Below the pieces are notes generated by a model, which worked only from the letters and a program-made list of their open reading frames with translations, was not told the DNA's origin and ran no database searches. This document shows, in pieces, positions 21,891 through 24,397 of a stretch of 64,000 nucleotides of DNA; the stretch's first letter is position 1, and each line of letters starts with the position of its first letter. The position numbers were made by a program, and so were the translations under genes. The stretch is from Methylomonas sp. (GTDB taxonomy: Bacteria; Pseudomonadota; Gammaproteobacteria; Methylococcales; Methylomonadaceae): NCBI GenBank assembly GCA_002929135.1, contig PESC01000038.1, positions 28,016 to 92,015 of the forward strand, read 5' to 3'.

Positions 21891-22403
21891 ATGAAGCTGT
21901 TACTGAAATACCTATCGTCCTGCTGGTTTCTCAACGACCCGTCCCAGTTGACACCCACGACATCGTTCATGTGGAAGAACGTGATGTTTTATTTCATTTC
22001 CGGCTGGATCGTGGAAGGCCTGATTGCCGACCCGGCCGACGGTGTGCTGGAAGTCAGCGGTCGGACCCTCATGGCCTTCAGCACGGTAGCCCTGATTCTG
22101 CTGCTGGAAAAGAAATGGGCCTACTACAGCCGCTTGTACACCTCGATTTTCGTCTGCGAAAACTTCATCATGACGCTGGCGATACTGACCGAATTGCTGG
22201 ATTTCTGGCTGGTCATGCAGCATTACCCCTACCGCGAAGAACTCGGCATTGGCATCGCGGTGTGTCTGGTAACGTGGTACATCGCCATCGTCGCTTACAT
22301 TTTCCGCCGCTTTTTCGCCTACCCCATCAGCGTCAGCCTGATTTTTGCCTTCGGCTATTTCGTGATGACCTACGGCATTCCGATGCTGTTGATGGACATT
22401 TGA
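21891..22403 (+). CDS. Hypothetical multi-span membrane protein
   Basis: 170 aa, not recognised. The ATG at 21891 (MKLLLKYLSSCWFLNDPSQL) is preferred to the upstream start, whose translation is low in hydrophobic content and unlike a real N-terminus. Four to five hydrophobic helices can be seen: VMFYFISGWIVEGLI, TLMAFSTVALILLLE, FIMTLAILTELLDFWLVM, IGIAVCLVTWYIAIVAYIF and ISVSLIFAFGYFVMTYG. The layout resembles small Yip1-like membrane proteins, but that is only a guess. tgt starts 49 bp downstream on the same strand. Confidence 0.65.
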   Translation: MKLLLKYLSSCWFLNDPSQLTPTTSFMWKNVMFYFISGWIVEGLIADPADGVLEVSGRTLMAFSTVALILLLEKKWAYYSRLYTSIFVCENFIMTLAILTELLDFWLVMQHYPYREELGIGIAVCLVTWYIAIVAYIFRRFFAYPISVSLIFAFGYFVMTYGIPMLLMDI

Positions 22404-22419
22404 CGCACACCGGCCATAG

Positions 22420-23562
<1,143 letters not shown>

Positions 23563-23581: not shown

Positions 23582-24346
23582 ATGATCGCCAAACTGGATT
23601 TGATACTCAGCGAACTCGACCTGCTCAAAATCGAATGGCAGCTGCAAAACGCCGTCAACAGTCCGGCAATCCAGCAAGCGCTGGCGATTCAATACACTTT
23701 CGACAGCCTGCATCTCGAAGGCAGTCGCCTGACCTTGCGGGAAACCGAGTTATTGTTGCGTAACGGTTTGATGTCGTCGGAAAAATCGCTGGCGGAAAAC
23801 ATGGCGGCACTCAACCATTTTCAGGCCATCGATTTCATTCGTGAAAAAGCCGCCGACCAGGTATTGCTCTCGGAAAACCTGTTGCTGGAACTGCACGCCC
23901 TGTCATGCCGGGCCATGCTGGAACAATATCCAGGACAGTATCGACAAATCGCATCGTTGACACCGGACGACCAACCCGCACCATCCCCGGACAAATTGCC
24001 CGAACAGGTGCAGGAACACATGGCCTGGCTGCGACGCGAAGGCGCGTTCATGCACCCTGTGGTGTTTGCAGCGGAAACGCACCGTCGCTTGCTGTATCTG
24101 CAACCCTTCAAATCGGCCAACGCGGTCTGCGCCCGCTTGCTGATGAACCTTATCCTGCTGGAAAACGATTTCCCGCTGGTGACCATCGCCAGCGACGACG
24201 CCAACCGCACCGCCTATCAAACTGCCATGGCACAGATCGATCTTCACCATGCCTCAGACGACTGGACACTCTTCATCGCCGAGCAAATCCGGCTCGCCTG
24301 CCAGTCGTTGATAAGCGCCCAACCGTCCCACGCCTCTTGGCTTTGA
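23582..24346 (+). CDS. Fic-fold protein lacking the catalytic histidine
   Basis: 254 aa, 19 bp after tgt. Fic proteins normally transfer AMP with the motif HPFx(D/E)GNGRxxR. Here the aligned segment is LQPFKSANAVCARLLMN: His is Gln, the acidic residue is Ser, both Gly are Ala and the first Arg is Val, while Pro-Phe, Asn and the last Arg remain. The surrounding fold is kept (HPVVFAAETHRRLLYLQPF and LILLENDFPLVTI). An N-terminal inhibitory-helix motif of the (S/T)xxxE(G/N) type is also kept (SLHLEGSRLT). It is therefore probably not an AMP transferase but a pseudoenzyme with a binding role. The frame is intact and uninterrupted. Confidence 0.75.
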   Translation: MIAKLDLILSELDLLKIEWQLQNAVNSPAIQQALAIQYTFDSLHLEGSRLTLRETELLLRNGLMSSEKSLAENMAALNHFQAIDFIREKAADQVLLSENLLLELHALSCRAMLEQYPGQYRQIASLTPDDQPAPSPDKLPEQVQEHMAWLRREGAFMHPVVFAAETHRRLLYLQPFKSANAVCARLLMNLILLENDFPLVTIASDDANRTAYQTAMAQIDLHHASDDWTLFIAEQIRLACQSLISAQPSHASWL

Positions 24347-24373
24347 GTGTTATGTTTTAATCGGCACAATACG

Positions 24374-24397
24374 CTGGGCAAGTGCCCGGTTTTTGTT
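24374..24397 (+). terminator. Terminator after the Fic-like gene
   Basis: CTGGGC-AAGT-GCCCGG with a T-run (TTTTTGTTG) right after the stem, 28 bp past the stop. It should end the tgt-Fic transcript. Confidence 0.7.

Follow-up and report, generated by a model that had tools for sequence, protein, structure and literature searches.

Proteins of the Fic family are enzymes that add nucleotides to other proteins, and most of them have been studied as such; there are few clear natural cases in which the active site is nearly gone and selection nevertheless maintains the gene at a constant position. In FICD, His363 is required for AMPylation as well as deAMPylation and Asp367 holds Mg (PMC8373988), Glu234 pairs with Arg374 and thereby closes the site, Lys256 acts as dimer relay and Leu258 belongs to the interface (PMC6826200). 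Degenerate Fido proteins are already known and include BepC, Campylobacter Fic2, Doc clade D2 and AvrB. The FIC domain of Bartonella BepC acts without catalysis by binding GEF-H1; in contrast to the protein described here, BepC keeps His, GNGR and Arg, has only the acidic position changed (D/E to K) and is a secreted effector with a BID domain (PMC7842960). Campylobacter fetus provides a chromosomal degenerate Fic as well, with cross-regulation between Fic1 and Fic2 (PMC5651007), but Fic2 has lost only the second glycine and the last arginine, is toxic in E. coli and belongs to class I. Doc clade D2 is a natural Fido family with Gln in place of His and the motif Qx[FY]x[DE][GV]NKR (PMC4454073). 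In the part of the literature that was covered, neither a description of a tgt-linked Methylomonas clade with near-total loss of the site and an invariant cysteine nor relevant work on Methylomonas Fic proteins, or on tgt together with fic, was found.

Fold and motif state of the gene behind tgt

The window, a stretch of 64,000 nucleotides from Methylomonas sp., contains the following features:

21891..22403, +, 170-aa hydrophobic protein without a Pfam family, 5' of tgt where the locus is shared between genomes
22453..23562, +, tgt (tRNA-guanine transglycosylase), 88–90% identity across a subclade of the genus
23582..24346, +, Fic-fold pseudoenzyme (pseudo-Fic), 254 aa; Pfam Fic, FICD match, AlphaFold2 model
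23705..23722, +, inhibitory-helix motif S-LHL-E-G, residues 42–47 (helix 28–45 in the model)
23783..23800, +, dimer-relay/interface segment KSLAEN, residues 68–73, by alignment to FICD and conservation
23939..23980, +, flap region, about residues 120–133; V-x-I-x-G-S lost; the model has weak strands at residues 126 and 132
24101..24136, +, degenerate Fic motif QPFKSANAVCAR, residues 174–185
24373..24394, +, terminator-like stem-loop and T run 3' of the pseudo-Fic gene, by pattern match

The description as a Fic-fold pseudoenzyme, put forward in a preliminary description of the locus, is borne out by profile, alignment and model. The Pfam family Fic (PF02661) is matched with E=8.3e-10 and a score of 39.8 bits (cut-off 24), and human FICD is the first phmmer match among solved structures (5e-18). 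The structure prediction proposed earlier as a check, an AlphaFold2 model calculated from the window protein and 11 relatives (pLDDT 87.9, pTM 0.88), displays the Fic fold. Its top Foldseek matches in the PDB are all Fic structures with TM scores of 0.8–0.87, the best being FICD 4u04_B (TM 0.87, rmsd 1.7). With a profile match above the gathering score and the Fic fold, the protein falls into the Fic/Doc fold family, and since 40–50% identical orthologues exist and the Fic-fold model is confident, this identity goes far beyond chance. NCBIfam holds no specific family for it, with matches far below cut-off only. PADLOC matches to the SoFic and PDC-S04 models were read as general Fic similarity, and membership in either was rejected.

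Alignment to FICD places Gln174 at the catalytic His363, Ser178 at the metal-binding Asp367 and Val182 at Arg371, with alanines (Ala179, Ala181) at both glycines; Asn180 and Arg185, corresponding to Arg374, are retained. The motif of active Fic proteins, HxFx(D/E)GNGRxxR, is thus not preserved in QPFKSANAVCAR, where His, acid, both glycines and the first arginine are replaced. The class II motif [S/T]xxxE[G/N] is present as S42-LHL-E46-G47, at the position it occupies in class II proteins. In KSLAEN, Lys68 corresponds to Lys256 and Leu70 to Leu258 of FICD. The pseudo-Fic shares with FICD and other class II Fics the fold, the N-terminal inhibitory helix with S-xxx-E-G, the position of the motif and the dimer-relay lysine, but differs from FICD in lacking TPR and flap motif and in the replacement of the residues equivalent to His363, Asp367, Gly368 and Arg371. 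Doc clade D2 shares the Gln for His, but is Doc-like and keeps acid and NKR, whereas the pseudo-Fic has no acid, and other residues stand in place of Gln in some members of its clade; QPFKSANAV, with neither acid nor NKR, does not match the D2 motif.

As noted in the preliminary description, the reading frame is intact and lies directly behind tgt, its start 19 nt past the tgt stop. The spacing makes co-transcription with tgt probable. A terminator-like stem-loop with T run likewise follows the gene; region-wide pattern matching yielded 5 such hairpins against 2.7 expected. Besides tgt, the neighbours in the window include an M3-peptidase-like ORF (HEFGHGLHH). No small antitoxin partner ORF was seen beside the gene in the loci examined, which sets it apart from FicTA and Phd-Doc modules, and Rfam revealed no structured RNA across the tgt-fic region.

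Distribution, order of losses and selection

Members of the pseudo-Fic clade are found in 10 of 37 Methylomonas genomes, namely the window's own and nine at 40–50% identity. A wider family was rejected, as neither the remaining Methylococcales (274 genomes) nor 368 genomes sampled from elsewhere in the class yielded a member; a search of viral contigs revealed no relatives. Below the ten members the match values jump from about 1e-113 to 1e-66 within the genus or 1e-73 within the order, and beyond this gap the motif HPFx(D/E)GNGRxxR is intact in every class II relative inspected. In the tree the ten form a monophyletic clade, with support of 100/99, and of 100/100 if both motifs are removed from the alignment. 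Its nearest intact-motif relatives within the genus (L011-L013, L043; 35–37% identity) have the same length and single-domain layout, but carry the motifs IHPFVDGNGRTAR and SNRIEGNTL and are located between hsdS and hsdR instead of beside tgt. In several Methylomonas genomes the gene of such an intact-motif, single-domain class II Fic is flanked by hsdS and hsdR within a type I restriction-modification operon (L040:2562-11117, L041, L042, L043; hsdM, hsdS and hsdR assigned by Pfam).

Apart from QPFKSANAVCAR in the window, the motifs of the clade read QPFQNNNGVCAR, QPFQNNNGLCAR (in two members), QPFPTANGLCAR, QPFQHNNGLCAR, KPFTTANGLCAR, LPFQNYNGLCAR, HPFIAANGTCAR and QPFGSFNGACAR. The metal-binding acid, the first glycine and the first arginine are absent from all ten, the catalytic histidine from nine. 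The preliminary description had proposed an alignment to see whether the Gln replacement is conserved; it is not, as the position holds Q in seven members and K, L and H in one each, and Gln as a conserved new base was rejected on this ground. Likewise, of the losses it listed, those of base, acid and both glycines hold for the window, but the second glycine is kept in 9/10 members and Gly181 to Ala occurs in the window only. Its statement that the inhibitory motif is kept applies to the window, but not throughout the clade, where the motif is eroded by E to D (L005), E to G (L009) and S to N (L010); overall, Glu46 is kept in 8/10 and Arg185 in 10/10, while the serine is replaced in 1/10. Because the only member that keeps His (L009) is the earliest branch, loss of acid, glycine and arginine probably preceded that of the histidine. 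By parsimony, the three former residues would have been lost on the stem together with a change of Thr to Cys at position 183, followed by His to Gln and later, in individual lineages, by replacement of this Gln with Lys or Leu.

Comparison of the ten members with 18 intact-motif relatives separates lost from retained positions. Lost in the clade are His174, Asp178, Gly179, Arg182, the flap residues V125/I127/G129/S130, which are invariant or nearly so in the 18 relatives, and H73/E75. Both groups retain S42, G47, E54, T55, H105, G118, R121, H158, P159, A163, A164, P175, F176, N180, R185, M188, N189 and Y212. Three positions are switched in 10/10 members: Thr183 to Cys, Phe228 to Trp and Ile173 to Leu. 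In the dimer-relay segment, Lys68 is present in nine of the ten, and position 70, equivalent to Leu258, is hydrophobic (Met in most members).

The gene is kept under purifying selection. Unsaturated pairs yield dN/dS values of 0.19 (G014-G008), 0.20 (G014-G016) and 0.25 (G008-G016), and for the same pairs dS of pseudo-Fic and tgt is 0.83/0.83, 1.14/0.95 and 0.55/0.52, an agreement which fits vertical descent. When the window gene is simulated under neutrality at 0.4 substitutions per site, about 7 stop codons are expected and 2 of 2000 frames stay open; this divergence is the drift assumed for the window branch, taken as roughly one half of the tgt dS (0.74) between the window and G008. Of the 46 residues that are the same in all nine other members, the window gene retains 39, and at sites where at least eight of these nine agree its differences peak at third codon positions (0.38 versus 0.23 and 0.12 at the others). 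However, the branch leading to the window is one of the longest in the tree, and this length together with the extra loss Gly181 to Ala suggests that constraint on it may be weaker.

In 8/10 genomes the gene lies directly 3' of tgt on the same strand, with the 170-aa hydrophobic protein 5' of tgt and a gap to tgt of some 15–30 nt in seven genomes and about 200 nt in one. None of these eight tgt-linked orthologues has the motif HPFxxGNGR, whose retention in sister species had been named beforehand as the sign of simple recent decay. The tgt tree recovers the subclades G008+G016 (+G014) and G027+G029. Away from tgt, L009 lies close to a dCTP-deaminase-like gene, and L010 is flanked by a ribonuclease-T2-like and a nifH-like gene, the latter judged by its N-terminal sequence. 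The linkage to tgt may reflect only common descent within one subclade, since these two members lie elsewhere and three genomes with the same type of tgt locus (G009, G034, G005) have no fic; the rest of the genus has other tgt neighbours. Near the tgt/pseudo-Fic locus of G027 a Tn5-type transposase is found (L033:11402-12787), and the divergent pseudo-Fic of G018 is located just 5' of apparent nifH and nifD genes (L039:7557-9522; protein N-termini).

Possible functions of the protein

The best explanation, to which a probability of roughly two in three is assigned, is a class II-type single-domain Fic that has turned into a catalytically dead binding protein, derived from the intact-motif class II Fics of Methylococcales. 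The sequence shows that the general base, the metal-binding acid, the anion nest's first glycine, the first arginine and the target-registering motif of the flap are lost; retained under purifying selection are Asn180, Arg185, the core of the fold and, in most members, Glu46. With histidine, acid and flap motif gone, AMPylation and deAMPylation are most likely impossible for the pseudo-Fic. As most of the catalytic residues are lost, yet the gene is intact across species, the protein probably works by binding and not by chemistry. A permanent latch between Glu46 and Arg185 is plausible, although not strict, as one member has Gly at position 46; together with the conserved dimer-relay segment it may now serve as structure. 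Expressed with tgt, the pseudo-Fic could bind a protein partner as scaffold, decoy or regulator, candidate partners being Tgt or the translation machinery and the other Fic proteins of the cell. Since a His-less mutant of FICD traps AMPylated BiP (PMC8373988), a reader of modified proteins is conceivable, but loss of acid and flap counts against it. A point against the reading as a dead protein is the residual activity after loss of His reported for IbpA, as cited in PMC4454073.

A different catalytic activity, with new transfer or hydrolysis chemistry in a remodelled pocket made up of Asn180, Arg185 and the invariant Cys183, appears quite unlikely. The switch at position 183, Cys in 10/10 members versus Thr in 18/18 intact-motif relatives, and the invariance of Asn180 and Arg185 (10/10) would suit such a pocket, and AvrB, which became a rhamnosyltransferase on the same fold, provides the precedent of a Fido protein that is a glycosyltransferase (PMC10866546). 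However, the clade lacks the flap motif, Arg and Asn may be structural, positions 178, 179 and 182 vary, and so does that of the old base, where the spread over Q, K, L and H makes Gln an unlikely new catalytic residue. Whether directed to a different reaction or to the sensing of a ligand that is phosphorylated or resembles a nucleotide, perhaps in connection with queuosine modification of tRNA by Tgt, a new pocket of Cys183, Asn180 and Arg185 is decidedly unlikely. Of the two possibilities named in the preliminary description, non-enzymatic binding would fit better than a different reaction, and is favoured because catalysis is likely lost and by analogy with BepC.

The binding partner could also be another Fic: a dead Fic acting in trans might pair with active Fics or shield their targets. 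At least one more Fic-domain locus exists in 9/10 carriers (2 to 7 in all), the class II inhibitory motif and the dimer-relay lysine are largely kept, and neutralisation of Fic2 by Fic1 in Campylobacter fetus offers a precedent (PMC5651007). Such a role is unlikely, however, as genomes without the pseudo-Fic carry about as many Fics, no other fic gene is co-located in the loci read, and in G017, whose genome is 77% complete, no Fic besides the pseudo-Fic was found. G027 alone among the carriers encodes a protein from the closest intact-motif clade, and close pairing with the RM-type intact Fic was rejected for the same co-occurrence in a single genome. Slow decay with a frame open by chance is very unlikely. 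The motif of the window is more eroded than those of its relatives (Gly181 to Ala), the gene was lost or never gained in 27/37 genomes of the genus, and it evolves faster than the far more constrained tgt (omega about 0.2 versus 0.03–0.08); but the ORF is intact in all ten members, between which dS runs from 0.5 up to saturation, and this argues against decay, as do the low dN/dS, well under 1, and the stop-codon simulation. On the same evidence recent decay was rejected, in agreement with the earlier view that the gene is not decaying.

The ordered losses, with acid, glycine and arginine first, histidine later and the inhibitory motif loosening, can be compared with intact-motif relatives, and in culturable Methylomonas, with M. 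lenta among the carriers, a non-catalytic role of the Fic fold is open to deletion and pull-down.

In addition, many Methylomonas genomes encode Fic proteins of a second family, about 484 aa long (L021-L029, e.g. L021:961-2412, minus strand), with the motif LQPFEDVNKRVSR, in which Gln stands for His and acid and NKR are kept; this family matches Qx[FY]x[DE][GV]NKR, the motif described for Doc clade D2 (PMC4454073).
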